Below, piece by piece: positions 10,094-45,659 of a stretch of DNA of 64,000 nucleotides. A model generated the notes under the pieces. The model was not told the DNA's origin. It made no database searches and saw nothing but the letters and a program-made list of their open reading frames with translations. Source of the stretch: Phenylobacterium sp. (lineage in GTDB: Bacteria; Pseudomonadota; Alphaproteobacteria; Caulobacterales; Caulobacteraceae); assembly GCF_025351295.1 (NCBI RefSeq), contig NZ_JANXWD010000021.1:1-64000 (forward strand), given 5' to 3'. The translations under genes were made by a program, and so were the position numbers. Each line of letters starts with the position of its first letter. Position 1 is the stretch's first letter.

Positions 10094-10107
10094 GATTACC
10101 TAGGTAG
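10094..10107. promoter_or_regulatory. GATTACCTAGGTAG motif upstream of the soluble kinase
   Basis: The core TACCTAGGTA is a perfect 10-bp palindrome, centred about 90 bp upstream of the kinase start. It is followed on the plus strand by TTCTCCCGCG. The same GATTACCTAGG plus AG string recurs at 11393. It resembles, from memory, FixJ-type sites (TAxGTAGTTTCCC-like), which would make the adjacent FixJ-like protein a candidate binder. This is inference. Confidence 0.4.
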
Positions 10108-10190
10108 TTCTCCCGCGGTGGCTTGCCGCACCCCGGGGGTGAAAGCGGCCACGCGCACGCGGCCGCCAGGACTTGAACGAAACCCGCAGC

Positions 10191-10886: not shown

Positions 10887-10888
10887 GG

Positions 10889-12656: not shown

Positions 12657-12702
12657 CTCCCATTGCGCGCGGCCCCGGAGGGCGCGCCAGGACCAGATGC
12701 CC

Positions 12703-12720
12703 TGTCTAGTTAGATTGACA
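12703..12720. promoter_or_regulatory. PpsR-type box between ispH and dxs
   Basis: TGTCTAGTTAGATTGACA matches TGT-N12-ACA exactly, with the favoured TTGACA right half. It lies 47 bp upstream of ispH and 116 bp upstream of dxs. Only one site is seen; no partner at the usual 5-8 bp spacing. Confidence 0.6.
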
Positions 12721-12835
12721 GATAGTGCCCCAGGACGCCAAGTATCTCGTGGTCGAGTGACGATTTGGGGCTGGACCGGCGTCCATTTGACGGATTGGAT
12801 GGGAATCGCCGGCCGTCATGGTGCTGGAGGTGTCC

Positions 12836-14731
12836 ATGAGTGTTTACAGTCCGGTCCTGGACCAGGTCACTGTCCCGTCGGACCTGCGCGGCCTTTCCAA
12901 GGACCAGTTGCGGCAATTGGCCGACGAACTGCGGCAGGAGACGATCAACGCGGTCTCGGTCACCGGCGGGCACCTCGGCGCGGGCCTGGGGGTGGTGGAG
13001 CTCACGGTCGCCCTGCACTATGTGTTCGACACCCCGCGCGACCGCCTGATCTGGGACGTCGGCCACCAGGCCTATCCGCACAAGGTGCTGACCGGGCGGC
13101 GCGACCGCATCCGGACGCTGCGCCAGGGCGGCGGCCTGTCAGGCTTCACCAAGCGCAGCGAAAGCGAGTACGACCCGTTCGGCGCGGCCCATTCCTCGAC
13201 GTCGATCTCGGCCGGCCTCGGGATGGCCGTGGCGCGCGACCTGTCGGGCGGCGACAACCGGGTGATCTGCGTCATCGGCGACGGGGCGATGAGCGCCGGT
13301 ATGGCCTATGAGGCGATGAACAACGCCGGCGCCCGCAAGGGCCAGCTGCTGGTGATCCTCAACGACAACGACATGTCGATCGCCCCGCCGGTGGGCGCGC
13401 TGAGCCGGCGCCTGGCCAAGCTCGTCTCGTCGAAAAGCTACCAGTTCCTGCGTGGGTTCGGGCGTGGCCTGGCCGAGCGCCTGCCCCGGCCGCTGCGCAG
13501 GGCGGCCGCCCGCGCCGAGGAATACACCCGCGGGATGCTGATGGGCGGCACGCTGTTCGAGGAGCTGGGGTTCCTGTACCTGGGCCCGATCGACGGCCAC
13601 GACTTCGACCACCTGCTGCCGGTGCTGGAGAACATCCGCGACAACGGCATCGGCGGGCCGGTGCTGCTGCACGTGGTGACCGAGAAAGGTCACGGCTATG
13701 CGCCGGCGGCGCGGTCCGCGGACAAGCTGCACGCCGTCAGCCGGTTCGACGTGGTGACCGGCGCGCAGTCGAAGGCGCAGGCTGCGGCGCCCAGCTACAC
13801 CAAGGTCTTCGCCGAGGCGCTGGTGCGCGAAGCCGAGGCGGACGACCGGGTCGTGGCGATCACCGGCGCCATGCCGGCCGGGACCGGGCTCGATCTGTTC
13901 GAAAAGCGGTTCCCCGACCGGATGTTCGACGTGGGCATCGCCGAGCAGCACGCCGTGACCTTCGCCGCCGGCCTGGCGACCGAAGGCTACAAACCCTTCT
14001 GCGCGATCTATTCGACCTTCCTCCAACGCGCCTACGATCAGGTGATCCACGACGTCGCGCTGCAGAAGCTCCCGGTCAGGTTCGCCATCGACCGGGCCGG
14101 GCTGGTGGGCGCGGACGGCGCGACCCATGCCGGCGCGTTCGACATGGCCTACCTGGGCTGCCTGCCGGGGTTCGTGATCATGGCCGCAGCGGACGAGGCG
14201 GAGCTGATGCACATGGTCGCGACCGCGGCCGCCTACGACAAGGGGCCGATCGCCTTCCGCTACCCCCGCGGCGAGGGGGTCGGCGTCGCCCTGCCCGAAC
14301 GCGGCCAGGTGTTGCCGATCGGCAAGGGCCGGGTCCTGCGCGAGGGCAAGGACGTCGCCCTGCTCAGCGTCGGCACGCGGCTACAGCCCGCGCTCGCCGC
14401 GGCCGAGCGGCTGCAGATGCGCGGCATCTCCTGCACGGTCGCCGACGCGCGGTTCGTCAAGCCGTTCGATCGCGACCTGGTCCGCCGGCTGGCCCAAAGC
14501 CACCACATGCTGATCACCCTGGAGGAGGGGTCGATCGGCGGGTTCGGCAGCCAGGTGCTCGACTACCTGGCGAACAACGATCTGATGCGCGCCGGCCTGT
14601 CCGTGCGCACCCTGATGCTGCCGGACGCGTTCCAGGACCACGACGACCCGCAGAAGCAATATTCGGACGCCGGCCTGAACGCGGCCGACATCGTCCGGAT
14701 CGTCGAAACCAGCCTGGCCAAGACGGCCTGA
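12836..14731 (+). CDS. dxs: 1-deoxy-D-xylulose-5-phosphate synthase
   Basis: A 631-residue TPP enzyme that condenses pyruvate and glyceraldehyde 3-phosphate, entering the MEP pathway. Motifs: [16 protein letters not shown], the TPP/Mg motif [20 protein letters not shown] (about residues 145-165), [16 protein letters not shown], and [18 protein letters not shown]. The start at 12836 follows GGAGG by 5 nt, better than the alternative at 12818. It is a usual photosynthesis-cluster member in alphaproteobacteria. Its end faces the cbb locus convergently. Confidence 0.96.
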
Positions 14732-14746
14732 ACCGACGCGGAACCC

Positions 14747-14905
14747 TCAATTCGCCAGGGCTCGGCGCAAGTTGGGCGCGGAGGCGCCGAAGCTGTCGAG
14801 GCCGACGATCCCGCCGTTCAGGCCCACATATTTCCACCACGAGCCTGAGGCTCCGGCCTCGACGGTGACGGCCTCAGGCGTGGCGATCACCGCCGCGTCG
14901 CTCAT
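14747..14905 (-). pseudogene. cbbT: Vestige of transketolase cbbT (internal deletion, C-terminal tail)
   Basis: A 52-codon open frame whose ATG overlaps the stop of cbbP (ATGA), just where cbbT follows cbbP in other operons. Its C-terminal half reads WWKYVGLNGGIVGLDSFGASAP, which is the transketolase C-terminal signature (WxKYVG...FGASAP). The TPP-binding and pyrimidine domains, more than 550 residues, are absent. About ten N-terminal residues with no clear match precede it, as if an in-frame deletion had joined start and tail. It cannot encode an active enzyme; transketolase must be supplied from elsewhere. Confidence 0.75.
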
Positions 14906-15777
14906 GAGGCCCGGCGCTTCTTGTCCAGCAGCTGCCAGACCATCGGCGTGAAGATCAGCTGCATCGCCAGCGGCATCGACCCGCCTGGACAGACGATGGT
15001 GTTCGGCCGCGACATGTAGCTGTCGTGCAGCATGGACAGCAGGTAGGGGAAATCGATGCCGGCCGGATCGCGGAAGCGGATAACCAGGATGCTCTCCGCC
15101 GCCGACGGAATGTCACGGGCGATGAAGGGGTTGGACGTGTCGACCACCGGAACGCGCTGGAAGTTCACGTGCGTCCGGGAAAACTGCGGACAGATGTAGG
15201 TCAGGTAGTCCGGCATCCGCCGCAGGATGGTGTCGACCACCGCCTCTTTCGAATAGCCGCGCTGCGAGCGGTCGCGATGCAGTTTCTGGATCCACTCCAG
15301 ATTGATGATCGGCACGACGCCGACCAGCAGGTCCGCATGCTGGGCGACGTCCACGTCCTCATGGGCCACCGCCCCGTGCAGCCCCTCGTAGAACAGCAGA
15401 TCCGAGCCTGGCGCGAGGTCCTCCCAGGGCGTGAAGGTGCCCGGCGGCTGGCCATAGGGCGCCGCCTCGGTCGGGTCGTGAAGGTACTTTCGCGCCTTGC
15501 CGCCGCCGTTCTCGCCATAGTCGCGAAACAGCGCCTCCAGCTCGGCGAACAGGTTGTTGTCGGGCCCGAAGTGGCTGAGGTGGTTGTTCCCCCTCGCCTG
15601 GGCCAGGGTGATCTGTTCGCCCATGGCCGCGCGATCGTAGCGGTGGAAGGCGTCGCCCTCGATGATGGCGGCGTCGACGCCCTCGCGCCGAAAGATCTGC
15701 TGAAAGGTCGTGCGCACGGTGGTCGTGCCGGCGCCGGAGGACCCCGTCGCGGCGATGATGGGATGCTTCTTGGACAA
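14902..15777 (-). CDS. cbbP: Phosphoribulokinase
   Basis: A 291-residue class I (bacterial) phosphoribulokinase, making ribulose 1,5-bisphosphate from ribulose 5-phosphate and ATP. The P-loop is ATGSSGAGTTTV (residues 10-20). IIEGDAFHRYDR, the HFGPDNNL region and LLFYEGLHGA with the catalytic Asp region (AHEDVDV) are present, as is RGYSKEAVVDTILRRMPDY. Length is normal for the family and no disruption is seen. It follows cbbF by 12 bp and is followed by the cbbT vestige. With cbbLS it is the enzyme specific to the Calvin cycle. Confidence 0.96.
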   Translation of the reverse strand: MSKKHPIIAATGSSGAGTTTVRTTFQQIFRREGVDAAIIEGDAFHRYDRAAMGEQITLAQARGNNHLSHFGPDNNLFAELEALFRDYGENGGGKARKYLHDPTEAAPYGQPPGTFTPWEDLAPGSDLLFYEGLHGAVAHEDVDVAQHADLLVGVVPIINLEWIQKLHRDRSQRGYSKEAVVDTILRRMPDYLTYICPQFSRTHVNFQRVPVVDTSNPFIARDIPSAAESILVIRFRDPAGIDFPYLLSMLHDSYMSRPNTIVCPGGSMPLAMQLIFTPMVWQLLDKKRRAS

Positions 15778-15789
15778 GGCGCGGGCTCC

Positions 15790-16875
15790 TCAGACCCGGC
15801 GGAACAGCGAACGGCGGTGCAGCAACGGCGTTCGAAACACCATCGCCTCGCCGCGATCGTAGCCCGCATGGTGGGTCTCCAGCCGCGTGACCTCGTCCTT
15901 CGAGCCGAAGATCAGGGGCGTGCGCTCATGCACTGCGCGCGGCGTGATCCCGAGAATCCGCTCGCGGCCGGTGGAGGCGGCGCCGCCGGCGGCCTCGATC
16001 AGCTTGGCGGCCGGATTGGCTTCGTACAGCAGCCTCAGGCGCCCCTTGCGGGCCGGTTTGCGATTGTCCCAGGGGTAGAGAAAGATGCCGCCGCGCACGA
16101 GGATTCGATGCAGTTCGGCGACCAGGGCGCCGTTCCAGCGCATGTTGTAGTCTTCGCCGCGCAGACCCTCCGCGCCGTCCTGGCACTGCTGGACGAACAG
16201 CTGCACCGGCGGTTCCCAGAACCGCTGGTTTGAGGCGTTGATGGCAAACTCCCGCGTGTTCTGCGGCAGGGTCATGTCGGGGTGCGTCAGCCGGAAGACC
16301 CCATCGCCGGGATCCAGCGTGAACCCATGGACGCCACGCCCCAGGGTGATGACCAGCAGGGTGGTCGAGCCGTACAGGGCGTAGCCGGCGACGATCTGAG
16401 CGTCGCCATTCTGCAGGAAGTCTTCGGGCGCGACCTTGGCCGCGGGCGCGCGCAGGACCGAGAAGAACGCGCCGACCGTCATCGCCGTTTCGGTATTCGA
16501 CGACCCGTCGAGCGGATCGATGACCAGCAGATAGGGCGCGCTGCCGAGCCGCTCGTCGGCGTAGACCGGCTCCTCCATCTCCTCCGAAACCAGCCCAGCG
16601 ATAAAGGGGCCGCACTCGGCGAGGAAAATGTCGTTGGCCACGACGTCGAGCGGCTTCTGCGACTCCCCCTGGACGTTGACCTCCAGAGCGGCGGTAAACG
16701 GCATCAGCCTGCCCAGCCTGGCGGCCTTGCCGACCGCCCGGCAGGCGCGCGAGATCGCGCCGACCAGGGCCGCGAGGCTCGCCTCCGGCGGCGCGTCCCA
16801 ATGGCTGGGATCGGCGACGAAGGCCTCGAACGACATCGGCGTATCGGCAAGCGGCTCAGCGGCCATCGTCGCCAT
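15790..16875 (-). CDS. cbbF: Fructose-1,6-bisphosphatase class I
   Basis: About 361 residues. Metal and substrate motifs are intact: [17 protein letters not shown], the Li+-sensitive phosphatase signature [25 protein letters not shown] and GGIFLYP. It dephosphorylates fructose 1,6- and probably sedoheptulose 1,7-bisphosphate in the cycle. Start candidates are 16875, 16866 and 16836; none has a strong ribosome-binding site. The first two overlap the end of cbbX, suggesting coupling. Confidence 0.93.
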
Positions 16876-17773
16876 CCGTAAACACCCGGCTGGCGCGAAT
16901 GTCCTCGGCCCGGATGGTCTCCAGCGCTTCGCGGTCGACCACGGCGGACCAGCCGTCGCACAGCCGGCGGGCCTGGCGCAGGCGCGCGCGGTCCAGGGCG
17001 TTGCGGATCGAACGCGCATTGGCGAAGTTGGGCCGCGCCTGGCGACGCTTGATGTAGTCCAGCATCGCCACCGCACCCTCGGCGTCGAAGCGATAGTTCA
17101 TCTGCTCGGCGATCAGCTTGGCGATCCTGAACAGCTCTTCGGTCGAATAGTCGGGGAAGTCGATATTGTGGGCGACCCGCGACGCCATGCCCGGATTGCT
17201 GCTGAAGAACGCCTTCATCTGCTCGCTGTAGCCCGCGAGGATCACCACCAGGTCGTCGCGATTGTCCTCCATCACCTGGAGCAGGATCTCGATCGACTCT
17301 TGGCCGTAGTCGCGCTCGTTCTCGGGCCGATAGAGGTAGTAGGCCTCGTCGATGAACAGCACGCCGCCCATGGCGCGCTTCAGCGCCTCCTTGGTCTTGG
17401 GCGCGGTGTGGCCGATGAACTGGCCGACCAGATCGTCCCGGGTCACGCTGACCACATGGTCGCGTCGGATATAGCCGAGACGGTGGAGGATGCGGGCCAT
17501 GCGGCGCGCCACCGTCGTCTTGCCGACGCCGGAATTGCCGGTGAAGCACATGTGCAGCGACGGCGGCGTCGAGGTCAGGCCGACCTGGGCGCGCGCCCGG
17601 TCGACAACCAGCAGGGCGGAGATCTCCTGGATGCGCCGCTTCACCGGCGCCAGGCCCACCAGCTCCGCGTCCAGTTCCTCGAACATCTCGCCAAGCTCCA
17701 CCTGGTTGGCCAGGGCGGCGAGGTCGATGCGATCCGGGACGGTGGCGTCGATGACGTTGGACGGGGTGGTCAT
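16856..17773 (-). CDS. cbbX: Red-type RuBisCO activase CbbX (AAA+)
   Basis: A 305-residue AAA+ protein. Walker A is [16 protein letters not shown] (about 73-88), Walker [12 protein letters not shown] (about 134-144), followed by the pore-loop/RuBP region [11 protein letters not shown]; arginine-rich sensor motifs such as [13 protein letters not shown] are present. CbbX uses ATP to pull on the CbbL C-terminus and free inhibited active sites of red-type RuBisCO. The ATG at 17773 overlaps the stop of the cbbE vestige. Its retention next to cbbLS argues that RuBisCO is still used. Confidence 0.95.
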
Positions 17774-17874
17774 GCGGCCCTCCGTCGGTCCGGCACGTCC
17801 GCCAATTTGTGGCGCAGGCGCGCCAGATCGGCGGCCAGGAGGCTGGGGGCGATCAGACACCGGGCTGGGGTCAT
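17770..17874 (-). pseudogene. cbbE: Vestige of ribulose-phosphate 3-epimerase (cbbE/rpe)
   Basis: A 34-codon frame whose ATG overlaps the cbbS stop and whose TGA overlaps the cbbX start. It begins [20 protein letters not shown], the unmistakable N-terminus of ribulose-phosphate 3-epimerase (IAPSxLxADxARL). About 190 residues holding the metal ligands and active site are missing, and the last 14 codons ([14 protein letters not shown]) may be the original C-terminus. The retained overlaps with both neighbours suggest an in-frame internal deletion that preserved translational coupling. Confidence 0.72.
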
Positions 17875-18305
17875 GGCGTGCGCCCGGGACCGTAGCGCCG
17901 CCCCGGGGGGGCGTCGGCGGCGTAGGGGCGCAAGGTGTATCCGATGTTGCGGCCGGGGCCGTCCGCGCGGATCAGCTCGAACCCCGGCTCGTCCGGCGGC
18001 CGGTGCACGATGAAGCTCATCCGCAGCGTCTCGAAGCCCTTGCTGGCGTCGAAGGCGAGGAGCCGCACGTAGCAGCGCGGCTGGGCTTCGCGGCAAGCGT
18101 TGACCTCGATCACCACCCCCGCCGGGTCCTTGAGGTCGAACATCGGCGCGCCCCACATCTCCCAGTAGACATTGCGTGGATGCGGATCGTCGGTGAACTC
18201 GACCGCCATCGACCAGCCCTGGTCCAGGGCGTAGGCGCACTGCGCAGCGATTTCCGGATCGGTGAGATCGGGCAGGAAGGAGAATTGGCCCTGGGTGAGA
18301 CGCAT
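17871..18305 (-). CDS. cbbS: RuBisCO small subunit, red type
   Basis: A 144-residue form IC/D small subunit. It begins [16 protein letters not shown], typical of red-type enzymes, with [31 protein letters not shown] and [14 protein letters not shown], and ends with the red-type C-terminal hairpin extension [13 protein letters not shown]. It follows cbbL by 11 bp. Translation from 18305 is preferred; the larger open frame upstream lies inside cbbL. Confidence 0.95.
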
Positions 18306-18316
18306 CGGGAACCTCC

Positions 18317-19816
<1,500 letters not shown>

Positions 19817-19835
19817 TTATCGATCGCCATGGATC

Positions 19836-20078
19836 GGCCTGGCGGGCCTGTCGCGGCACACCGCGTGTCTCGAACTGGGCCTGGGGCTGCTGAAGGCGCT
19901 GGATGTTCATGGCTCGCCCTGGATGCGCACTTGGTTCGTCGCGCACCGCCGGTCGATGCCGCTCCTGCCGCTGCATGCGCGCCTGAAGGCCTTCATCCTC
20001 GCCGAGGGTCGCGGGGTGGTGGCCGAGATGGAGGCGGTCAACGCGCGGAACCCAACCCCGCCGCCTTCGCGGGGCTGA
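19836..20078 (+). pseudogene. cbbR: 5'-truncated cbbR (LysR-type regulator, C-terminal stub)
   Basis: About 80 codons match the C-terminal end of CbbR: LSRHTACLELGLGLLKALDV, then MRTWFVAHRRSMPLLPLHA and RLKAFILAEG. The helix-turn-helix and most of the effector domain are absent. It lies divergently to cbbL, the canonical position of cbbR, so a deletion removed its start and probably the shared cbbR-cbbL intergenic promoter. The reading frame stays open upstream to 19743, but residues before the LSRHT region do not resemble CbbR. It cannot bind DNA. Confidence 0.75.
20056..20074 (-). terminator. Weak hairpin just after pufM
   Basis: CCCCGC and GCGGGG form a 6-bp stem with a 7-nt loop, 18 nt beyond the pufM stop and inside the cbbR stub. 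On the minus strand it is followed by TTGGGTT and no U-run. It could stabilise the puf mRNA or end some transcripts, but does not look like a strong terminator. Confidence 0.35.
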
Positions 20079-20091
20079 GCCAGGGGTCGCG

Positions 20092-21018
20092 CTATTGCGT
20101 GAAGGCATAGTGGTGCGCGACGGCCCACCCGTGCCAGTCGTCGACCACGGTGCCGGTGATCAGGATGCCGATCCCGCCGGTCAGCGGCGTCAGCACGGCG
20201 AACCACCAGGCCCAGCGGTGCACCGACTCCATCGTGGCGTTGAACCCCATGGTCCAGCGCCAGAACAGGGCCGCCCGCTCCGAGGCCGTGCCGCGATCGG
20301 TGACCTGCTCGATCTCCCGCTCGCCGCCATACCGGCTGACCGCCAGGATCGTGGCGCCGTGCATGGCGAACAGCAGGGTGGAGCCGTAGAGGAAGACGAT
20401 CGAGAGGCAGTGGAACGGGTCGTAGAACAGGTTGCCGTAGCGGATCGAGAACGACCCCACCCAATCCAGGTGCGGGAAGATTCCAAACGGTACGGCTTCG
20501 CTCCAGCTGCCCATGAAGATCGGCCGGATGAAGCCCAGCACCAGGTAAAGCCAGATCGCCGAGGCGAAGGCCCAGGCCACGTGGGTGCCGAGGCCCAGGG
20601 CCCGCGCCCGGGTATAGGTCCGGACCCACCACAGGATGAGCGATGCGGTCAGGAAGAATCCCGCCATCAGCCACCATCCGCCCTGCGCCAGGGGCGGGAA
20701 GATCTGCAGCCCGTATTCCGGCGGCGGCGGCTGCAGGGAGAGCCAGGGCAGCTGCCGCACGAACTCGGCGGGATTCCAGCCCACCGAAGCCCACATGTTG
20801 AGTCCGATGATCTCGAAGGCCAGGAAGCCGCAGAGCAGCGACGCGACACCCGTGACACCAAGATAGATCGGCCCGATCTGCGCGTTGCCGATGATGCCCA
20901 GCAGCCACGATTGCCAGGGGGTCCCGTCGCGGCTGAACTGGCCCGCCGGGAGGGCGACCCCCATCTCGGCCGGCCCGCGGACCTGGACCTGGGTGAATAT
21001 GTTTTGATAACCCGCCAC
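20092..21018 (-). CDS. pufM: Photosynthetic reaction centre M subunit
   Basis: A 308-residue integral membrane protein that binds the special pair, accessory bacteriochlorophyll and quinone QA with PufL. Seen are the N-terminus [15 protein letters not shown], helix [16 protein letters not shown], the special-pair region [20 protein letters not shown], the iron ligand region [14 protein letters not shown], and GGIGILITG. It starts at GTG 21018, 10 nt after GGAGA. The start is 15 bp after the pufL stop. No pufC follows; the antisense cbbR stub and then cbbL come next. Confidence 0.97.
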
Positions 21019-21032
21019 AGTCCGTCTCCTCG

Positions 21033-21857
21033 CTAGCCCCAAATCGGGAGGTTACGCCACCAGTTCCACCATTCCGGCCAGCCGAGCGACCACACCGGGC
21101 CGCTGATGACGATGCAGACCGCGCTCCAGAACACCGCCGACAACGCCAGGAAAAGGCCAAGCCGGTGAATGCCCAGGGTGCCGATCGAGTAGCCCATCAC
21201 GTCGCGGAAGAAGGTGTCTTCATGCTCCGGCGTCTTGACCGCCTCGCCCTTGCCGGGATTGGTCGCCGACAGGATCAGCGAGCCGTGCAGGGAGAGCGCG
21301 AAGGTCGTCGCAAAGAAGAACGACACGGCGATCATGTGCGCTGGATTATAGTGGAAATTCAAATATCTATACCCGGTGTTGGACACCCACTCCAGGTGGC
21401 TGAAGATGCCGTAGGGAAAGGCGTATCCCCAGGCCCCGAGCAGCGCCGGCCGCACCACCTCAAGCACGAAATAGGCCAGGATCGCGAAGCTGAAGGCGAA
21501 CGGCACATGCATGCCGATCCCCAGCTTGCGGGCGATCTCCACTTCGCGCAGCGCCCACGACCCGAAGGCCCCCAGGGCGCAGAAGGTGATGGCCTGCCAC
21601 AGGCCGCCCTCCTTGAGCGGCGCCAGCGCCATGCCGTAGCTGATGTCGGGCGGCGCGATGCTGATGCGCCAGATGTTCCAGGTGGGCCCAAGCGCGGCGC
21701 CGTAGACGATCAGCGCCGTCCCGAGGGCGGCGAAGAACACCGACGTCACTCCAAAGAAGCCGACGTAGAAGGGGCCGACCCAGAAATCGAACAGATCGCC
21801 GCCGAGCAGAGTGCCTCCGCGCACGCGGTATTTTCGTTCAAAGCTCAGCAACGCCAT
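21033..21857 (-). CDS. pufL: Photosynthetic reaction centre L subunit
   Basis: A 274-residue membrane protein with five helices. It starts [17 protein letters not shown], a near-invariant N-terminus, with [14 protein letters not shown] (helix A), the special-pair region [17 protein letters not shown], and [18 protein letters not shown] (iron/QB region). It lies 134 bp after pufA; this spacer contains no gene and probably a segmental-decay hairpin, as in other puf mRNAs. Confidence 0.97.
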
Positions 21858-21991
21858 GGCTGCGGGTCTCCGCGCTGGTTTGTTCGTCCGCCAGGTCCGA
21901 CCTGGGAGTTCGGAAGTCCGGGTGGCGGGCGGGTCGGCCAGGGCCGACACACGCCCGCTCCCTTCTTGGGTAGATCAGGAGACGATCGCGC

Positions 21992-22201
21992 CTAGGCGGG
22001 CTTGATCGGCGCCTTGGTCGGATCGACCGTCAGGGTTTGCGACGCCGCAGGAGCGGCGTGCTTGACGTTCGGGCCTTCGATCCAGTTGAACCGCGACGTG
22101 CTGAGCAGGATGAAGTGAATCAGCAACGCCAGGACAAACAGGAAGACGAACAATCCGACGAGTACGCGTCTTGGATCAAATAGAAGCCAGATCCTCCACA
22201 T
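21992..22201 (-). CDS. pufA: Light-harvesting 1 alpha subunit
   Basis: A 69-residue antenna polypeptide. It begins [20 protein letters not shown], has a single helix with the bacteriochlorophyll-liganding His in [10 protein letters not shown], and a polar C-terminal tail. It follows pufB by 12 bp. It forms the LH1 ring around the reaction centre with PufB. Confidence 0.96.
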
Positions 22202-22213
22202 GATAGTTCTCCT

Positions 22214-22444
22214 TTAGCTGAAGTAGCTCAGAGCCAACTGACCGGCCATCTTTCCGTGCTCCATCAGCTCGGAGTAACCCTGGACACCAGGCAACCAGGG
22301 ACGCCAGTTCCAAACCAGAACGTGCGCGATGATCGCGATGATGGTGAACCCGATGAAGCTTCCCATGAAAATTCGATGGAATTCTTTTGCTTCCGCTTCA
22401 GTCAAGCCCGTCAAGCTACCTGTACTTAGATCTCTTTCTGCCAT
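22214..22444 (-). CDS. pufB: Light-harvesting 1 beta subunit
   Basis: A 76-residue antenna polypeptide. [20 protein letters not shown] and the liganding His in [17 protein letters not shown] are the LH1-beta signature. The start at 22444 is preferred: the upstream open frame has no antenna homology. It lies 189 bp after bchZ. This gap has no full-length pufQ; a 38-codon frame overlapping the bchZ stop is the only candidate remnant. Confidence 0.96.
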
Positions 22445-22633
22445 AACTCCTGCTCCAATCTCGCTGTTGCTCACCCTATGGACGGGATTACTTTGACAGC
22501 GACGCCAACCGCGAGGACCATCATCGCGATCTCTTGATGAGGCCGTTGAGAACAACCCCACTTGAGCGCGGGCCGTCGCAGCTGCGTGTTTGCTGCCGTC
22601 CGCCCGTAGGCGGCGCGAAGGCGTCCCTGCCCA

Positions 22634-24088
22634 TCATGCCGCCTGGCCCTCCATCAGGCCCGCGTGCGCGATCGCGACACGACTCGCCAGGACGCGCCCC
22701 TCGCCGGCCAGGCGCGCGCCGCGCTCGGCCGCGTCACGCAGGCGTTTCGCCGCGGAAATCCGCACCAGAACCGGCTGCGCCTCGACAATTCGGTCGAGCG
22801 CCGCCTTGGCGTCCGGGTCCCAGGCCAGCTCGACATGCCGGCGCGCCGGCGTCGCCTCCACCTTGTCCATCTGCGCGGCGAGCGGGAGGATGTGGAAGAG
22901 CGCGTCGAACAGCGCGTTGCAGACCTCCTGCACCAGGTAGGTCGCGCCGGCGTAGCCCATGAACGGCGTGCCGGTATGGCGGCGGATGATCGCCCCCGGG
23001 AAGGAGGCGGGAATGTAGGTGGCCCGGGATCCGGCCTCGGCCATGTACATCCGCTCGTTGAAGCTGCCGAACATGACCAGGGGCGGCGTCTCGCGAATGG
23101 CGCGCCTTACCGCCTCGTTGTCCGACTTGCGCCCGGCGACCCGCGAGACGGCGAACATGCAGGGCAGGCCCATGTCGGTTTCGAGGAAGGCGCGGATCCC
23201 GCGGGCGTAGGTCTCGTTGGCCACGACGGCGAAGCTGGCGGTGCCGAAGAAGTCCTGGGTCACCGAGCGCCACAGATCCCAGATCGGCTTGATGGTGGTG
23301 TGCTTTTCCCGCGCGATGAAGGGTTCCGGATCGAGCTCCAGCAGCTCGCCAAGCGTGCGGAGGAACCGGGTGGTGGAGTCGAGCCCGATCGGCGCCTGCA
23401 GATAGGGCCGCTCCAGGGTCTCGCAGAGCTGCCGGCCGAACTCCCGGTACATGCAGACGTTGACGTCGGCATCCGCCAGTCGGCGCACGTCCGCAAGATG
23501 ACTGCCCAGCGGGAAGACCAGGTTGACCTGGGCGCCGATCCCCTCGATCAGCCGCCGGATCTCCGCCAGGTCCGACGGCATGTTGAACATGCCGTACATC
23601 GGCCCGATGATGTTGACCTTCGGCGGCTCGCCGTCCTTGCGGGGGCGCAACTTCGGGACCTTCTTCGGACCGAACTGGGTCCAGAGCCAGGTCAGGGCGC
23701 GATCGGCGCTCTGCCACTGATCCTCATCGATCGTGCGCGGCAGGAAGCGCTGGATATTGGTGCCTTCCGGGGTGACGCCGCCGCCGATCATCTCGGCGAT
23801 CGATCCGGTGACCACCACCGCCGGCAGGTCACGGTCGAGCGTGCGCCAGGCCCGCTTCATCGCGCCCTCGGTGCCGGTCTGGCCCAGTTCCTCCTCGCCG
23901 AGACCGGTCACCACGATCGGCAACTCATGTGGCGGCAGGCCGTCGGTGTAGTGCAGCACCGAGGTCACGGGCAGGTTCTCGCACCCCACCGGTCCGTCGA
24001 TGATGACCTGCAGCCCCTTGATGGCCGTGAAGGCGTAGACCGCGCCCCAATAGCCGCCCGCGCGATCATGATCGAGGATCAGCGTCAT
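22634..24088 (-). CDS. bchZ: Chlorophyllide a reductase subunit Z
   Basis: A 484-residue nitrogenase-like subunit. It reads [20 protein letters not shown], with the cluster cysteine in [25 protein letters not shown] and [13 protein letters not shown]. With BchX and BchY it forms chlorophyllide oxidoreductase, which reduces ring B to the bacteriochlorin. It overlaps bchY by 4 nt (ATGA). The last gene of bchXYZ, it is followed by puf. Confidence 0.97.
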
Positions 24089-25635
24089 GAGCCGACCGCC
24101 TCTTCCTGGGCGCGGGCCGCGGCCATGGTCTTGGCGTAGCGCGCCTTGAACTCGGGCCGGTCGATCGGGGTGTCTTCCCAGACACCGCTGGCGTGCCCTG
24201 TGCCGACGCCTTCGAAGAAGGCGCTCATCTGGTCGAAGCGGGCCTTGTTCGCGAGCGCGGCGTTGATCACCTGAGCCAGCGAGCCGGCCCCCGCCGGTCC
24301 CATCAGCGGCCGGGCCGAGATCAGGTTGGTGAAGTAGAGCGCGGGGATCGAGCGCTGCTTGGCGTACTGCACCACCGGGGTCGTGCCGATGGCGAGGTCG
24401 GGTCCGAACTCCTCGAACGCGGCGATGTCCTGCTCCAGCGAGGCGCGGAACTGCACCCGCACACCCCGTGATTCCAGCCACTCGCGGTCCGGGTCGGACC
24501 AGGGGGTGCGCGGGCAGGCGGTGCCGACATACGGCACGTCGGCGCCGCTCTCCAGCAACAGCCGGGCGACCAGCAGTTCGGAGCCCTCGTAACCGCTGAG
24601 GGTGATGCGGCCGCGGATCGGCGCGGCGGCGAGCGCACCCTGGATGGCCGGCAGGAAGCGGTTCTTGGACGCGTCCACCTGGGACTGGGCGATCCCGCAG
24701 GCCTGACCGATGGCATCGAGCCAGGCGGCCGTGCCGTCGCGCCCCACCGGCGCCGAACCGACGATCGCGCGGCCAGCGGCGGTGAATTCACGCACCGAGG
24801 CGGTGTAGAAGGGGTGGATCGCAGCCACGGCGGCGCAGTCCAGGGCGGCGTACAGCTCGCGCCATTCCCGGGTCGGCACGACCGGGCCGGCGGCCAGGCC
24901 CAGCGGCTCAAGCATCATGCCGATGCCCACCGGATCGGCGGGGAACATCTCGCCCAGCAGGGTGATGGTGGGCTTGTCGGACTGCTCGCGCGGCGCGGCG
25001 ACCGGACCCTGCTCGGCCTCGCCGCGGGCGTATTTCAGCATGGCCCCGGCCAGTACGTCCTTGGCCTCCGCGTGCGTGGGGATGCCGAAGCCCGGAACGT
25101 CGATGCCGATGATCCGCACGCCGTTGATCTGCTTGGGCAGCAGTTGCAGCGGCACGCCGGAGGCGGTGGGCACGCAGAGGTTGGTGACGATCACCGTGTC
25201 GTAGAGTGCGGGATCGGCCAGCTGGAAGACGGCTTCTCGGATGTCCTCGAAGAGTTTGCCGGTCACCAGGGTTTCGGAGTTGAACGGGACGTAGCCCACG
25301 GTCCGGCGTGCGCCGTAGAAGTGCGAGGTGAAGGTCAGGCCGTAGACGCAGCAGGCCGAGCCGGACAACACCGTGGCCGTGCGGCGCATGCGCAGCCCGA
25401 CGCGGAGCGAGCCGAAGGCGGGGCACATGCTCTGGGGCTGGTCATGGGGGCCCTTGGGATAGTCCTTGGCGTACCGGTCGAGGATGTCGGATTTGCCGGC
25501 GCTCTGGGCGGCCTGGCGCAGTTCATCCGGCCCGGCGTGGCATCCGCCGCCGTCGCCGACGCCCGGCGAAGCGACGACCTCGCTCACCGCGCCATCGGCG
25601 GAGATCATCGCGTCGGAGGGCGCCCGGTCGCTCAT
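24085..25635 (-). CDS. bchY: Chlorophyllide a reductase subunit Y
   Basis: A 516-residue NifD/K-like subunit. The cluster-ligand region [18 protein letters not shown], then [20 protein letters not shown] and [15 protein letters not shown] are conserved in BchY. It pairs with BchZ as the catalytic heterotetramer of chlorophyllide reductase. It starts 3 bp after the bchX stop. The first ~35 residues are variable. Confidence 0.97.
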
Positions 25636-25638
25636 CGC

Positions 25639-26628
25639 CTACACCGCGTCGTAGATGACTTCGAGGGTGCGGGTCTCGGCGAACACGCCGCCGCGCATGT
25701 CGGCCTGGCTCGCCGGCTGCAGCACATAGGCGCCGCCCGTCTGGTCCGCGGCGAACAGGCCCAGCAGACCGTCCTGGGTCAGCGGCTTGGGTCGCACCGG
25801 CGGCGCCGTGGCCACGTTCGCGGCCAGGGATTCGAACAAGGGTCCCCAGCGGTCGCCGGGCGTGCCGATGATCTGGTAGTTGGCGGACTTGCGCCGGATG
25901 TCGTCGTCGGCCGGAATCGCGGCCAGCACCGGGATGCCGACGGCGTCGGCGAACGCCTGGGCCTCGCCGGTGCCGTCGTCCTTGTTGATGAGCATGCCGG
26001 CCACGCCGACATTGCCGCCGAGCTTGCGGAAGTATTCCACCGCCGAGCAGACGTTGTTGGCGACATAGAGCGACTGCAGGTCGTTGGAGCCGACGACGAT
26101 GACCTTCTGGCACATGTCCCTGGCGATCGGCAGGCCGAAGCCGCCGCAGACCACGTCGCCCAGGAAGTCGAGCAGGACGTAGTCGAAGCCCCAGTCATGG
26201 AAGCCCAGCTTCTCGAGCAGTTCGAAGCCATGGATGATGCCGCGCCCGCCGCAGCCGCGACCGACTTCGGGGCCGCCCAGCTCCATCGCGAACACCCCGT
26301 CGCGGGTGAAGCAGACATCCTCGATGCGGACCTCTTCGCCGGCCAGCTTCTTGCGGGCCGAGGTCTCGATGATGGTCGGGCAGGACTTGCCGCCGAACAG
26401 CAGCGAGGTGGTGTCGGACTTGGGGTCGCAGCCGATCAGCAGGACCCGCTTGCCCTGCTGGGCCATCATGTAGCTGAGGTTGGAGAGGGCGAAGCTCTTG
26501 CCGCTGCCGCCCTTGCCGTAGATGGCGATCACCTGGGTCTCCTTCGTCACCGCGCCGGTGTGGACGGGATCGGGTTCAACCGCGGCTTCCGCGCGAAGAC
26601 GGCGGTTGTCGATCAAGGTGACGCTCAT
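25639..26628 (-). CDS. bchX: Chlorophyllide a reductase iron protein X
   Basis: A 329-residue NifH/BchL-like reductase. P-loop IAIYGKGGSGKSFALSNL (about 33-50), GCDPKSDTTSLLFGG, the 4Fe-4S cysteines in GRGCGGRG and [12 protein letters not shown]. It delivers ATP-driven electrons to BchYZ. Its promoter region, between bchC and bchX, carries three PpsR-type boxes, so bchXYZ-puf can be transcribed on its own as well as from crtE. Confidence 0.97.
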   Translation of the reverse strand: MSVTLIDNRRLRAEAAVEPDPVHTGAVTKETQVIAIYGKGGSGKSFALSNLSYMMAQQGKRVLLIGCDPKSDTTSLLFGGKSCPTIIETSARKKLAGEEVRIEDVCFTRDGVFAMELGGPEVGRGCGGRGIIHGFELLEKLGFHDWGFDYVLLDFLGDVVCGGFGLPIARDMCQKVIVVGSNDLQSLYVANNVCSAVEYFRKLGGNVGVAGMLINKDDGTGEAQAFADAVGIPVLAAIPADDDIRRKSANYQIIGTPGDRWGPLFESLAANVATAPPVRPKPLTQDGLLGLFAADQTGGAYVLQPASQADMRGGVFAETRTLEVIYDAV

Positions 26629-26674
26629 AGGCTTGGCCTTCCACCGCTCGGCCCCTATCTAGTCGAGCCGAGAG

Positions 26675-26758
26675 TGTCAGCCTAACTTTACGCCAAGGGT
26701 TGTCAATCTAAACGTACACTTCGTTGCGATCCGAAAATATCGTCAATCTGACCTGACA
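26675..26758. promoter_or_regulatory. Three PpsR-type boxes upstream of bchX
   Basis: Sites: 26675-26692 TGT-N12-ACG; 26701-26718 TGTCAATCTAAACGTACA (exact TGT-N12-ACA); 26741-26758 CGT-N12-ACA. The first two are 8 bp apart, the classical spacing for cooperative PpsR/CrtJ binding. They lie 47-130 bp upstream of bchX. A fourth exact match, 26768-26785, lies mainly in the 3' end of bchC. Confidence 0.7.
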
Positions 26759-26776
26759 GTTGGGCTCTGTCAGACC

Positions 26777-27712
26777 TCAGGCACACTGCCGCCAATCGAG
26801 AACCATCTTCAGGCAGGTGAAATCCGTGAAGGCCGTGCGATACGCGCCATCGGCTTCCTCCGCCGGCCGGCGATGGGTGATCAGGCCTTCCAGCGACAGG
26901 GCCCCGGTCTCGATGAGCCGCGTGGTGAAGGCCAGGTCCTCAGGCGCCCATTCCGCCGCGACGCGCAGGCGGGCCTCGCGGATGAAGGCCGGCGGAAATT
27001 CGAACGACAGCGGCTGGTCGTAGAAGCCGGCCAGCACCACCTCGCCACCCCGGGCCAGGCGCGCGATCAGGCCGCCGAGCAGCTTGGAGTCGCCGCTCAC
27101 GTCATAGATCGCGCGATAATCGCGCCGCTCGTCCGCGTCGGGATGGACCACCCGATAGCCCTCGGCGCCCTCGCCGCGCAGGGAGTTGGTTTCCCAGACG
27201 GTCGGTGGCGGGCCGCCCTCGATCACCGCCAGCCGGGCCAGCAGCCGGCCCAGCACGCCGTGTCCGACGATCAGATCCGGGGTGGCGCCGCCGGCGATCG
27301 CGTGGCGTGCGGTGGCCGCCAGGGCGATCAGGACCCCGCGATCGCCCAGCGACTCGGGGATGGAGACGACCCGTGCGCTGGGCGCGACCAGCCGCCGCGC
27401 CGCGCCGCCGAACAGGCCGCGTGCATCCTTGAAACCGGACGAACCGGGGACGAAGACGGTCTCGCCGATCCGCCCGCGCGCGCCTTGCCCCGCATCGACC
27501 ACCCGGCCGACGGATTCATACCCCGGCACCAAGGGGTAACCCATGCCGGGAAAGGGCGGCATGCGGCCGCTCCAGAGCAGGCGCTCGGTGCCGGTGCTGA
27601 TCCCGCTCCAGTCGATCTCCACCATGAGGTCATCGGCGGTGATGTCCTTGAGGTCGAGGTGGCGCAGTGACAGTTGTTCAGGCTGCTCGATCACGACGGC
27701 CAATGTGTCCAT
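26777..27712 (-). CDS. bchC: 3-hydroxyethyl bacteriochlorophyllide a dehydrogenase
   Basis: A 311-residue medium-chain dehydrogenase-like protein. The N-terminal SGISTGTERLLWSGRMPPF and YPLVPGYESVGRVV, and the nucleotide region IVGHGVLGRLLARLAV are characteristic of BchC. It oxidises the 3-hydroxyethyl group to acetyl late in bacteriochlorophyll synthesis. It follows crtF by 35 bp in crtE-crtF-bchC. Confidence 0.96.
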   Translation of the reverse strand: MDTLAVVIEQPEQLSLRHLDLKDITADDLMVEIDWSGISTGTERLLWSGRMPPFPGMGYPLVPGYESVGRVVDAGQGARGRIGETVFVPGSSGFKDARGLFGGAARRLVAPSARVVSIPESLGDRGVLIALAATARHAIAGGATPDLIVGHGVLGRLLARLAVIEGGPPPTVWETNSLRGEGAEGYRVVHPDADERRDYRAIYDVSGDSKLLGGLIARLARGGEVVLAGFYDQPLSFEFPPAFIREARLRVAAEWAPEDLAFTTRLIETGALSLEGLITHRRPAEEADGAYRTAFTDFTCLKMVLDWRQCA

Positions 27713-27747
27713 CTTGGTCTCCTCATTTTGCCCGCCACAGCTACGGT

Positions 27748-28866
27748 TCAGGGCTGGGCCAACACCGCGCGCAGCAGGAAAGGCGTGCGGGTGCGCAGGG
27801 TCCGGATCCGACGAAATCCGGCGGTTCGCGCCAGCGCGGCGATCTCGGCGGGCGTCCGGGCGCGGCCGCGGCCCATGGCCAGCAGGTAGAGCGCGAAATA
27901 GACGTCGGCGACCCGGTCGGTCCGGGGCGCGGCGGACATCGGTTCGGCGATCAGCAGGGCGCCGTCCGGCGGCAGCGCCGCGCGGATGGACCGCAACAGC
28001 GCGACGGCGCCGGTGTCGTCATGGTCGTGCAGGATACGAACCAGGGTGATCAGGTCGGCGCCCGCGGGCACGGGTTCGGACAGGAAATCCCCAGCGAACA
28101 CCTCTGTACGATCGAGCAGGCCCGCGCAGGCCAGCCGCCGCCGGGCGCGCTGCGTCACCGCCGGCAGGTCGAACAGCATCAGTTCCAGCGCCGGCGCCTG
28201 CGCCCCCGCCAAGGCCAGGAACGCGCCCTCCCCGCCGCCGACATCCATCAGCCGGCGGTGGCGGCCGATGCGGTAGGCCTGGAACAGGTCGGCGGCGACC
28301 GCCGGAAGCGTCGCGGCCATCAGCGCCGAATAGTCCGAGACGTCCTCGGGTGTGGTGGCCTGCGGCGCGGCCGAGGTCGCATAGGGCCAGTAGGCGGCCA
28401 GGTGGCCTTCTCCCCCGCCACGGCGCAGCAGGCCGACGCCGTCCGCCAGGTCCGCATAGAGATGCCGATGGTGCTCGATCATCTCGAGCAGGCCGGCATT
28501 GCCCAGCAGGGCCGCGCCCTGCGCGCCCAGCGCATAGCGGCCGGGCCCCGCGCGCTCCACCAGCCGCAGCGCCTGGGCCGCGCCCAGCAGCCGGTCCACG
28601 GCCTCCAGGGGCAGGTCGAGCACCTCCGCCAGCGCGGCGGTCGCGCGCGGCCCGTCGCGCAGCAGTTCGAACAGCCGCAGCCGCACGCAGGTCGCCAGGG
28701 TCTGCGAGTAGACGAAGCCAGCGACCAGATCGAACAGGCCCTGCGCGCGGCGGCGCGCGATCGGCCGGGTCAGCGGAAAGTCCGCGGCCCACTGCTGGAA
28801 ACCCGGATCGGACAGCAGCCCGTTGCGCCAGCCGGTCCATCGATCGCGCCACGTCGTCGCGGACAT
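27748..28866 (-). CDS. crtF: Demethylspheroidene / hydroxyneurosporene O-methyltransferase
   Basis: A 372-residue SAM-dependent methyltransferase. An N-terminal dimerisation domain (RLRLFELLRDGP) precedes a Rossmann domain with the SAM motif LMDVGGGEGAFLALA and LVRILHDHDD. CrtF methylates the tertiary hydroxyl of hydroxylated carotenoids, giving methoxy end groups of spirilloxanthin-series carotenoids. It is 6 bp downstream of crtE. Confidence 0.94.
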   Translation of the reverse strand: MSATTWRDRWTGWRNGLLSDPGFQQWAADFPLTRPIARRRAQGLFDLVAGFVYSQTLATCVRLRLFELLRDGPRATAALAEVLDLPLEAVDRLLGAAQALRLVERAGPGRYALGAQGAALLGNAGLLEMIEHHRHLYADLADGVGLLRRGGGEGHLAAYWPYATSAAPQATTPEDVSDYSALMAATLPAVAADLFQAYRIGRHRRLMDVGGGEGAFLALAGAQAPALELMLFDLPAVTQRARRRLACAGLLDRTEVFAGDFLSEPVPAGADLITLVRILHDHDDTGAVALLRSIRAALPPDGALLIAEPMSAAPRTDRVADVYFALYLLAMGRGRARTPAEIAALARTAGFRRIRTLRTRTPFLLRAVLAQP

Positions 28867-28872
28867 GGCGGG

Positions 28873-29742
28873 TCAGGCGGCGCTGCGCGCCAGCTGTTTT
28901 GGCGCCAGCCGCGTGGCCTGGATCTGCACCAGGTCCCGGAGGCTCCTGGCGCCGTCGCACGGTGGGATCGCGGCGACCGCTTCGCCGACGAGGCCCTCCA
29001 GCCGCGCATGCGCGCCCTTCAGGCCCAGCTGCGCCACCAGACTGGGCCGCTGCAGAGCGGCGTCGCGGCCGGTCGGCTTGCCGCAATCCGCCTCGGCGCT
29101 GACCGCGTCCAGCAGGTCGTCGGCGACCTGGTAGGCCGCGCCAAGCTTCTCGCCCAGCTCCCGCCAGGGCGTCGGATCCGCGCCGACCGCCACCGCGCCG
29201 CACATCGCGGCAGCGACGAACAGGGCCCCGGTCTTGGCGCGATGATAGGACTCGACGGGCACGGAGCGCTCGCTCTCCCAGGCCTGGCCGGCGACGATCC
29301 CGCCCGGCATGCCCACGCCGCGAGTTACGATGGTCAGCAGCGCGGGCAGCCGGGCCGGCGCGGCGGCCCCCGCGCGGGCCAGGACGTCGAAGGCCATCAC
29401 GATAAGCGCGTCGCCCGCCAGCACCGCCAGCGGGGCGCCAAAGGCGGCGTGCACCGAGGGCTTGCCGCGCCGCGTGGCGGCGTCGTCGAAGCAGGGCAGG
29501 TCGTCATGCACTAGCGAGGCGCAGTGGAGGAGTTCGATCGCCGCCGCCACCGCCTCGACCAGGCCCGTGTCACCGCCGCCGCAGGCCTCGGCGACCGCCA
29601 GGCACAAGCGCGGGCGAACCCGCGCGCCGCCTGGAAATACCGCGTGCCGGAGCGCGGCGGCGAGGCGCGGCGGGGCATTCTGGGCCTCGGCGAGGGCGAC
29701 CGCCGCCTCAAGCGTGGATTCGATCCTCAAGGCCACCGTCAT
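28873..29742 (-). CDS. crtE: Geranylgeranyl diphosphate synthase
   Basis: A 289-residue trans-prenyltransferase. First aspartate-rich motif HDDLPCFDDAATRRGKPS, second region YQVADDLLDAV, plus GGARVRPRL near the N-terminus. It makes GGPP for phytoene and for the phytyl tail of bacteriochlorophyll. The start at 29742 fits the family; the longer frame runs through the PpsR boxes. First gene of the minus-strand crtEF-bchCXYZ-puf superoperon. Confidence 0.95.
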   Translation of the reverse strand: MTVALRIESTLEAAVALAEAQNAPPRLAAALRHAVFPGGARVRPRLCLAVAEACGGGDTGLVEAVAAAIELLHCASLVHDDLPCFDDAATRRGKPSVHAAFGAPLAVLAGDALIVMAFDVLARAGAAAPARLPALLTIVTRGVGMPGGIVAGQAWESERSVPVESYHRAKTGALFVAAAMCGAVAVGADPTPWRELGEKLGAAYQVADDLLDAVSAEADCGKPTGRDAALQRPSLVAQLGLKGAHARLEGLVGEAVAAIPPCDGARSLRDLVQIQATRLAPKQLARSAA

Positions 29743-29779
29743 GCGGTCAACTCCCAGCGGGATGCGGCGATCGTCCGAG

Positions 29780-29822
29780 TGTAAATCAATTTGGACAACA
29801 AGAATGTCCTCGAAGCTAGACA
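29780..29822. promoter_or_regulatory. Tandem exact PpsR boxes between crtE and crtD
   Basis: TGTAAATCAATTTGGACA (29780-29797) and TGTCCTCGAAGCTAGACA (29805-29822) both match TGT-N12-ACA and are 7 bp apart. They sit in the 115-bp divergent region, 38 bp from crtE and 36 bp from crtD, so one PpsR complex could repress both directions, including the superoperon that runs into puf. Confidence 0.8.
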
Positions 29823-29857
29823 CATGCTAGGGCGTAAAGCAACGCGGACACGGGAAT

Positions 29858-44198: not shown

Positions 44199-45659
44199 TC
44201 AGGGCAGGCCTTGACCGTCGCCATCGGCGAGGTTGCCGAGTCCGAAGCGATGCAGCTTGGAATAGAGGCTCTGGCGGCTCAGACCCAGCAGCCCGGCGGC
44301 GGAGGCGCGGTTGTTCTTAGTCAATTCCAGTGCGGCCTCGATGCACAGCCGCTCGACGAGGTCCGTGCTTTCGCGCACCAGTTCCTTAAGCTTCACCCGG
44401 CCAACCAGCTCGGTCAGCTGGTCCACGGACCGGTTCACCTCTTTCCCACCCAGACCGAGGTCGGCGGGGCGGCGGCGCACGCCGCGGATGGTGAATCCGA
44501 AATAGGTCTCCGAACCGTCCGGCACGGAGACCGCCGAAATCTCCACATCTTCCGGCTCGTCGAACTGGTTGCGCAGGGAGGTGCTGAAATTGCGCACCGA
44601 ACCGTTGGCGCGCAAGTTGTCGATCAGGACGTTGCGTTCCAGGCCGGCGCGCCCGAGGAACTGGCCGAGCGAGCGACCGAGCGCCTGCTCCAGGGTCGGG
44701 ATGCGAACCATGTCCAGGAACAGGGTGTTGGCCATGACAATGGTCAGGGCGCTATCGGTCACCAGGAAGGCGTCCGGGATGCGCGCCAGAACCTCCTGAA
44801 GCCGCGCCGACCCGTCCGCCTCCACGGATGCGCCCGAGTCTGATGGCGACAGCCGGACCAGGCACAGCATCGCCCGACCCTCCCGGAACAGCGAGGCGGA
44901 GACCAGAAACGCCCGCCCCTGGATCGACAGGTGCATCTGCGCGCAGCCGGTCCGGTTCGTCGACTGGGCCACCGCCAGCAGGGCCGCGGCGTCCTCCTGG
45001 CTGGCCGGATCGAACATCCTGGCGAACGACTCGCCGACCAGCCGGGGCCCGGACTTTCCGGCTATGTGCGTGGCGGCGGGATTGACCTCGACGATTTTCC
45101 TGGCAGTGGCATCGACGATGATGACGGCCTCGGCGGACATCTGAAACAGCAGGCGGTAGCGGAATTCCGCGTCCCGCAGCCGCGAATAGTCCCGCTCCAT
45201 GGTCTGCTGCGCCTCGATCAGGCGCTGCTGCATCGTCGCCGTCGGCCGATCGTCGCGACCGATGGCGATGACATGGCCTTCCCGGCCCGCGTCGACGGCG
45301 ACGTAGCGCACCATCAGCGAGTTGAGCGCCGGCGTGAGCTGGTTGACCTCGCGCCATTTGGTGCGGCCGTAGCGCACTGCGTCGCGCAGAAGTTCGTCGA
45401 CCTTGTGCCGGCTCTCGACAGTGACGGTGTCGGACCAGCGCTGGTCCAGCCAGGCGCCGACCCCCGCGTCCGCCAGGTCGTCATTGCTCAACGCCAGGTC
45501 GCGGATCACGCCGTCACGGTCGATGATCAGGGCTATATCGCCCCCCGCTGCGGCGACCCGCGCGGCGGCGGCCGCGTCCAGCTTTCCCAAATGACCACGC
45601 GAAAACGGCTGGCGTTTCGGGCCGCCGGAGAGGGGGGAACCACCCTTTGCGTCCATCAC
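44199..45659 (-). CDS. ppsR: Transcriptional regulator PpsR/CrtJ
   Basis: A 486-residue repressor: an N-terminal domain, two PAS domains (about 160-270 and 285-395), a coiled linker and a C-terminal Fis-type helix-turn-helix (NNRASAAGLLGLSRQSLYSK). A Cys at residue 439 precedes the HTH; whether it is the redox-sensing cysteine of other PpsR proteins needs alignment. It represses bch, crt and puc genes under oxygen by binding TGT-N12-ACA. It follows ppaA by 31 bp, in one operon. Confidence 0.95.
   Translation of the reverse strand: MMDAKGGSPLSGGPKRQPFSRGHLGKLDAAAAARVAAAGGDIALIIDRDGVIRDLALSNDDLADAGVGAWLDQRWSDTVTVESRHKVDELLRDAVRYGRTKWREVNQLTPALNSLMVRYVAVDAGREGHVIAIGRDDRPTATMQQRLIEAQQTMERDYSRLRDAEFRYRLLFQMSAEAVIIVDATARKIVEVNPAATHIAGKSGPRLVGESFARMFDPASQEDAAALLAVAQSTNRTGCAQMHLSIQGRAFLVSASLFREGRAMLCLVRLSPSDSGASVEADGSARLQEVLARIPDAFLVTDSALTIVMANTLFLDMVRIPTLEQALGRSLGQFLGRAGLERNVLIDNLRANGSVRNFSTSLRNQFDEPEDVEISAVSVPDGSETYFGFTIRGVRRRPADLGLGGKEVNRSVDQLTELVGRVKLKELVRESTDLVERLCIEAALELTKNNRASAAGLLGLSRQSLYSKLHRFGLGNLADGDGQGLP

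Follow-up and report, generated by a model that had tools for sequence, protein, structure and literature searches.

A Calvin-cycle operon that has lost cbbR lies directly behind pufM in a photosynthesis gene cluster of a probable Caulobacteraceae genome

Purple bacteria normally switch carbon fixation through CbbR and coordinate it with photosynthesis in trans. In Rhodobacter, this trans coordination is reported to be exerted by RegB/RegA (PMC5359404). Closer physical linkage has also been described: Hallgren et al. (2025) report that the photosynthesis gene cluster (PGC) of Acaudatibacter (GTDB Palsa-881; PMC12700997) contains Calvin-cycle genes, cbbX and cbbY among them, and nowhere in the main text of that paper does cbbR occur. 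Rhodospirillum centenum, considered as a possible precedent, has a cbbR immediately upstream of both of its cbb operons and other photosynthesis genes after pufM, and so does not match the locus reported here. Among the matches listed from the open-licence literature, no title or abstract opening described a cbb operon that lacks cbbR and follows directly on pufM. Here, we analyzed a stretch of 64,000 bases (“the window,” bases 1 to 64000 of an 83-kb contig) from a 4.6-Mb draft genome of 167 contigs, rated 99.9% complete and probably belonging to the Caulobacteraceae, in which a red-type cbb operon directly adjoins pufM and cbbR survives as a relic. The presence of cbb genes inside a PGC is already published (PMC12700997); new here are the separate origin of the operon, its direct junction with pufM, and the disappearance of cbbR.

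On the minus strand of the window, the series crtE-crtF-bchC-bchX-bchY-bchZ-pufB-pufA-pufL-pufM leads, across a gap of 311 bp, into cbbL-cbbS-cbbX-cbbF-cbbP, with the end of pufM at 20092 and the start of cbbL at 19780. This order, strand, and spacing had been proposed in a first-pass annotation made from the bare sequence and are borne out by the coordinates and by NCBIfam and Pfam matches, with the crt and bch names resting on that annotation, gene order, and the reading of open reading frames (ORFs). Each of the five retained cbb genes has a full-length open frame and matches its family. The red-type CbbL/CbbS is accompanied by its CbbX activase and is the only RuBisCO match in the whole genome, in which a search for the NiFe-hydrogenase large subunit found no match.

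The 311-bp gap holds what is left of cbbR. In an NCBIfam profile search, an antisense fragment at 19833 to 20006 (+) matched positions 242 to 299 of 304 in the CbbR model NF045990 (E = 1.4e-8), so the helix-turn-helix domain and almost the whole effector domain have been lost, in agreement with the first-pass description of an antisense stub that had probably lost its DNA-binding domain. No intact divergent cbbR stands beside cbbL. The same annotation had supposed that the native cbbR-cbbL promoter was gone and had suggested a comparison with relatives that keep cbbR; that comparison, run against the eight closest named loci (L028 to L035), supports the loss of the promoter region. All eight have an intact divergent cbbR before cbbL and a more AT-rich spacer: the distance from the aligned cbbR start to cbbL is 113 to 178 bp, at 43 to 53% AT, and an AG..AT..CT core is invariant in 8/8. 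In the window, the CbbR homology is 53 bp (32% AT) away from the cbbL ATG, and the operator/promoter region of the nearest relatives is absent. A search of the window for the operator-like pattern AAGGRATNCCTTG at ≤2 mismatches gave 0 matches, where chance would give 3.7. Measured against L028, ∼0.8 kb of cbbR and promoter region is missing.

The ancestry of the operon was traced through CbbL. We kept 80 named loci as its closest relatives, and the nearest among them, at 86 to 89% identity, are from Azospirillum and other Rhodospirillales. The window and L028 to L035 make up one side of a branch with support of 100/98 in a 58-row tree, from which 30 of the original 88 were dropped (two long branches and 28 rows of the Bradyrhizobium type); the 88-row tree, built without the short L146 row and the G107 fragment, agrees. 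Six of the eight relatives share the order L, S, X, F, P, with L032 giving no cbbX hit in the scan and L031 being cut. Neither pufM nor pufL was hit near loci L026 to L107 in flanks of up to 10 kb, shorter at contig ends. Plasmid records numbered 119 in the CbbL search and 11 in the PufM search; they were not cross-matched, and we draw no claim from them.

A second relic marks the far end of the operon. When the genome was searched for transketolase, the housekeeping enzyme was found on contig C24 and a short match right behind cbbP, where an ATG at the prk stop leads into a transketolase C terminus whose body is missing; the end of this cbbT relic is the left edge, 14747, drawn in the first-pass annotation. 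Over 32 aa the relic is 69% identical to CbbT of L033, a Rhodospirillales metagenome-assembled genome (MAG), and 56 to 62% identical to that of L028, L029, L034, and L035, all five of which have a full cbbT after cbbP. No cbbT was found in L030 or L032, and L031 ends with its contig. Because a cbbT relic follows cbbP here and a full cbbT does so in relatives, the acquired unit was most likely the whole cbbR|LSXFPT, from which the regulator, promoter, and redundant gene were lost and RuBisCO, activase, fructose-1,6-bisphosphatase (FBPase), and phosphoribulokinase (PRK) were kept. Beyond the relic, the operon meets a second dxs tail to tail. That convergent gene has PpsR-type sites upstream, and the cbb operon therefore appears to lie inside the photosynthesis region. 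The second dxs (12836 to 14731, +) is itself 69% identical to the other copy in the genome (C110:6715-8565), and the sites at 12703 and 12831 sit in the ispH-dxs divergent region. The features of the locus are collected in Table 1.

Table 1. Coordinates of the cbb operon, its relics, and the surrounding photosynthesis genes in the window
Feature	Coordinates	Strand	Basis
Second dxs, convergent with cbb operon	12836..14731	+	PpsR-type sites at 12703, 12831
cbbT relic, 52-aa ORF	14747..14905	-	TIGR00232 positions 598-641
cbbP (prk), phosphoribulokinase	14902..15777	-	NF011997, 495 bits (cut-off 362)
cbbF, class 1 FBPase, diverged beyond operon neighbours	15790..16875	-	NF006779, 391 bits (cut-off 349)
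cbbX, red-type RuBisCO activase; start set at ATG of MTTPSN	16856..17773	-	TIGR02880, 473.9 bits (cut-off 459)
cbbS, small subunit; start set at ATG of MRLTQG	17871..18305	-	Pfam PF00101, E=3.5e-37
cbbL, red-type form I RuBisCO large subunit, intact, 487 aa	18317..19780	-	NCBIfam, trees
cbbL ATG to CbbR homology: ribosome-binding region, without AT-rich operator/promoter	19781..19832	-	
cbbR relic, C terminus only, antisense to proposed transcript	19833..20078	+	NF045990 242-299/304, E=1.4e-8
Strong hairpin at pufM stop, 13-bp stem in 7-bp stem, without U-tract	20039..20094	-	RNA fold
pufM ORF	20092..21042	-	TIGR01115
pufL ORF	21033..21950	-	TIGR01157
pufA-like small ORF	21992..22201	-	Named by position; homologs at same place in relatives
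pufB within ORF	22214..22561	-	NF040862 over cut-off
bchZ, bchY, bchX, bchC, crtF, crtE, upstream part of proposed superoperon	22634..29823	-	
Two PpsR-type sites, bchC/bchX gap and 3' end of bchC	26701..26785		
Two PpsR-type TGT-N12-ACA sites, start of crtE ORF	29780..29822		
ppsR	44199..45659	-	TIGR02040, 428 bits (cut-off 275.4)

Readthrough from puf into cbb, following capture and pruning of the operon, is in our view the best explanation of this sequence record, with a probability of roughly 0.6. We infer that an entire cbbR|cbbL-S-X-F-P-T operon, of the type found in Azospirillum/Rhodospirillales, was taken up and landed directly behind pufM inside the PGC, that one deletion then took the start of cbbR together with the part encoding the DNA-binding domain and the promoter between the divergent cbbR and cbbL, and that another took most of the redundant cbbT. 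The remaining cbbLSXFP would be transcribed by readthrough from crtEF-bchCXYZ-pufBALM, so that RuBisCO, activase, FBPase, and PRK would be made alongside the photosystem under PpsR, oxygen, and light control. The result would be a cis-acting tie of light capture to CO2 fixation or redox disposal. The first-pass annotation had suspected just such a capture of carbon fixation by photosynthesis control; the lost cbbR and promoter, the single RuBisCO, and the lack of another clear CbbR speak for it.

That annotation had also taken the puf region to be PpsR regulated. The window encodes ppsR and is enriched in PpsR-type TGT-N12-ACA sites (15, compared with 3.55 expected; 0/100 shuffles reach 15), which lie at crtE, bchC/bchX, and ispH-dxs, among other places. 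With the window scan placing no site just upstream of pufB and none in 19781 to 20091, PpsR would control cbb only via readthrough from the crtE or bchX promoters. Readthrough along the superoperon also explains most simply how the cbb genes could stay in use, given that no promoter- or terminator-like site is found at the junction and no PpsR-type site locally. A consensus scan of 19600 to 20300, covering both strands for sigma-70, found neither sigma-70-like nor terminator-like sites. The junction stretch is 71% GC, and folding of the whole pufM-cbbL intergenic stretch gave no signal (z = +0.92).

Several observations weigh against continuous transcription from puf into a cbb operon in full use. 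The absence of PpsR-type sites from the junction and from the pufB upstream region is one, and some of the 15 sites are intragenic, including one inside prk at 15021. A strong hairpin at the pufM stop could halt or attenuate transcripts. Consensus scans are compatible with a nonconsensus promoter somewhere in the 311 bp, and 17/28 relatives also show no terminator by our crude test, so its absence in the window says little. Finally, pN/pS (nonsynonymous relative to synonymous differences) for FBPase is raised as much as for the cbbR relic (0.64/0.41, given as window versus seven relatives/among the seven), and the CbbL end branch is long (0.14 in the tree); together, these leave room for relaxed constraint on part of the operon. 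The chief reservations are the hairpin and the possibility of a hidden promoter.

The hairpin deserves a closer look. The 6-bp hairpin of the first-pass annotation is in fact a 13-bp stem enclosed by an outer one of 7 bp; the 75 nt fold at −36.1 kcal/mol, which is ordinary for the composition (z = −0.98), and there is no U-tract. It may possibly act as an mRNA stabilizer or as an attenuator. By contrast, the post-pufM hairpin of relative L112 has a T-tract and a z of −3.86. In the same crude test, a terminator-like hairpin with a T-tract occurs within 314 nt behind pufM in 11/28 relatives, in 27/560 shuffled controls, and not in the window. We weighed a reading in which a new or cryptic promoter, in the cbbR relic or the intergenic stretch, drives cbbL while the hairpin ends or attenuates the puf transcript. 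The 13-bp GC-rich stem at the pufM stop is in its favor, as are the high expression that RuBisCO usually needs and the many alphaproteobacterial promoters that escape consensus scans; the lack of a sigma-70-like match on either strand, the GC content of the stretch, and the missing T-tract count against it. We regard a local promoter as unlikely, if still worth taking seriously.

Control by a CbbR encoded elsewhere is a clearly poorer prospect. An intact cbbR at another site, combined with a strong independent cbbL promoter and a binding site in 19781 to 20091, was an outcome that the first-pass annotation had named as damaging to its reading; our search turned up no clear CbbR, and the best hit in the genome to the CbbR model is a LysR at C116:30717-31646 (239 bits, compared with 106 for the next LysR). 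In the tree, the nearest neighbor of this protein is a Roseiarcus LysR encoded divergently from cbbL, although both branches are long and the join is unsure. It scores below all six cbb-linked CbbRs tested (273 to 352 bits), does nearly as well on another LysR model (206 bits), and would have to act at cbbL, where the operator-like motif of the relatives is absent. Under strict cut-offs, it was found in 1/60 genomes of the genus, its own (E ≤ 1e-60), and the same holds for an 1,823-aa carboxylase fusion (E ≤ 1e-200). This shared distribution, at those cut-offs, and their divergent arrangement suggest that the LysR and the fusion probably arrived as a pair, the one regulating the other. Across the class, searching for the regulator at E ≤ 1e-72, a cut-off too strict to place orthologs, again gave its own genome alone (1/385). 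A simple relocation of cbbR is not supported, because the C116 protein scores below the cbb-linked CbbRs tested and faces an unrelated carboxylase. The C116 locus (24786 to 31646; L108) consists of the biotin carboxylase-type fusion and, divergent from it, the CbbR-like LysR. Locus L026 (G093:C4:186861-188048), from another family of the order, encodes a remote RuBisCO-like protein (33% identity) and, divergent from it, a LysR that resembles CbbR (265 bits).

It is more doubtful still that the operon is a recent casualty, its expression lost with the promoter and its genes starting to decay. Two deletions, a diverged FBPase, and the long CbbL branch would fit such a fate; five full-length, family-matching frames would not, nor would pN/pS values near those of relatives for cbbL (0.20/0.16), cbbS (0.47/0.45), cbbX (0.42/0.41), and prk (0.40/0.35). 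Seven of the eight relatives entered these values, with L031 left out and L032 contributing 28 cbbX codons. The cbbR relic has a raised value (0.60/0.42), and the pattern is as expected for a dead relic beside enzymes in use. Synonymous sites appear to be near saturation (pS, 0.35 to 0.71), so the deletion is not datable. The FBPase (15790 to 16875, −) has a mean identity of 53% to the seven relatives, compared with 71% among them, and its operon neighbors are less diverged. An assembly or binning chimera, conceivable in a 167-contig draft in which codon use of the Azospirillum L028 cbbL fits the flanking genes as well (r = 0.978) as that of the window cbb genes does (r = 0.979) and so does not separate host from donor, is very improbable, given that relics of the missing genes at both junctions would hardly arise from a random join and that the dxs past the far end shares the PpsR-type sites of the cluster.

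The linkage of cbb to photosynthesis genes recurs in other genomes, beside or inside the PGC in the related genus g19 and in L042. Counting weak and fragmentary matches and the genome studied here, 31/390 family genomes have a pufM match and 10/390 a CbbL match; no other examined genome of the window’s genus has pufM. The 10 CbbL matches comprise the window’s own, seven in g19 (of which G107 is a fragment and G103 partial), one partial match in g30, and one weak match (32%) in g1. Judging by its cbb genes, cbbX, cbbY-like gene, and PGC, g19 is probably the published Acaudatibacter. In G102, G104, and G115 of g19, cbbL lies ∼9 to 10 kb and the first cbb gene ∼4 to 5 kb behind pufM, on the same strand of one contig, and the gap holds, both in antisense, a pucC-like gene and a cbbR that is intact. 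The cbb genes run F-P-T-A-L-S-X, seen in full in L150; A is uncalled in L148, and L149, resolved by tblastn only, is cut in cbbS. An rpe follows cbb in L148 and L150, and L150 has a cbbY-like gene; T, A, rpe, cbbY, and pucC were named here by ORF reading. In G110, also of g19, cbb sits on a separate contig, next to homologs of the PGC's hemA end. CbbL of six g19 genomes is 76 to 80% identical to that of the window. A common cbb lineage for the two runs counter to the trees and to an approximately unbiased (AU) test that rejected their grouping (p = 0.000442, a value not strictly prior because the group was chosen after the first tree was seen). In L042, a bog Rhodospirillales MAG (positions 1 to 17700; several genes named by ORF reading), a complete cbbR|cbbLSXFP lies between carotenoid genes and bchD/bchI-like genes.

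The prospect that crtEF-bchCXYZ-pufBALM-cbbLSXFP forms a cis-fusion devoid of its own regulator and governed by photosystem control alone, and that it and the sister-genus clusters point to repeated selection within the family, strikes us as about evenly balanced. If real, a fusion without CbbR would offer a natural experiment on whether photosystem control is enough by itself. The locus suggests how a photoheterotrophic lineage might turn photoautotrophic by capture of a module, and the capture of two cbb modules, unlike in ancestry, at one and the same cluster edge poses an evolutionary question that is testable by comparing related genomes.

Set against known systems, the locus combines features that are elsewhere separate. 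Operons of the form cbbR|cbbLSXFPT in Azospirillum and other Rhodospirillales provide the closest CbbL, the gene order, and up to 60% identity to the CbbR C terminus; they keep a full divergent cbbR and promoter region and lack pufM and pufL in the scanned flanks, whereas the window has lost cbbR and adjoins pufM. Acaudatibacter/g19 likewise has red-type cbb genes with cbbX in a Caulobacteraceae PGC, downstream of pufM and on the same strand, but with an intact cbbR, the order cbbF-P-T-A-L-S-X, and a kilobase-scale gap in place of L-S-X-F-P, 311 bp, and relics of cbbR and cbbT. L042 shares cbbL-S-X-F-P beside carotenoid and bacteriochlorophyll genes but retains an intact divergent cbbR, is not behind puf, and has a CbbL of 83% identity. 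The crtEF-bchCXYZ-pufBALM superoperon of purple bacteria, under PpsR/CrtJ, has the same upstream order and strand, and ppsR and PpsR-type sites are present here as well; in the window, that superoperon is extended by a Calvin-cycle module.

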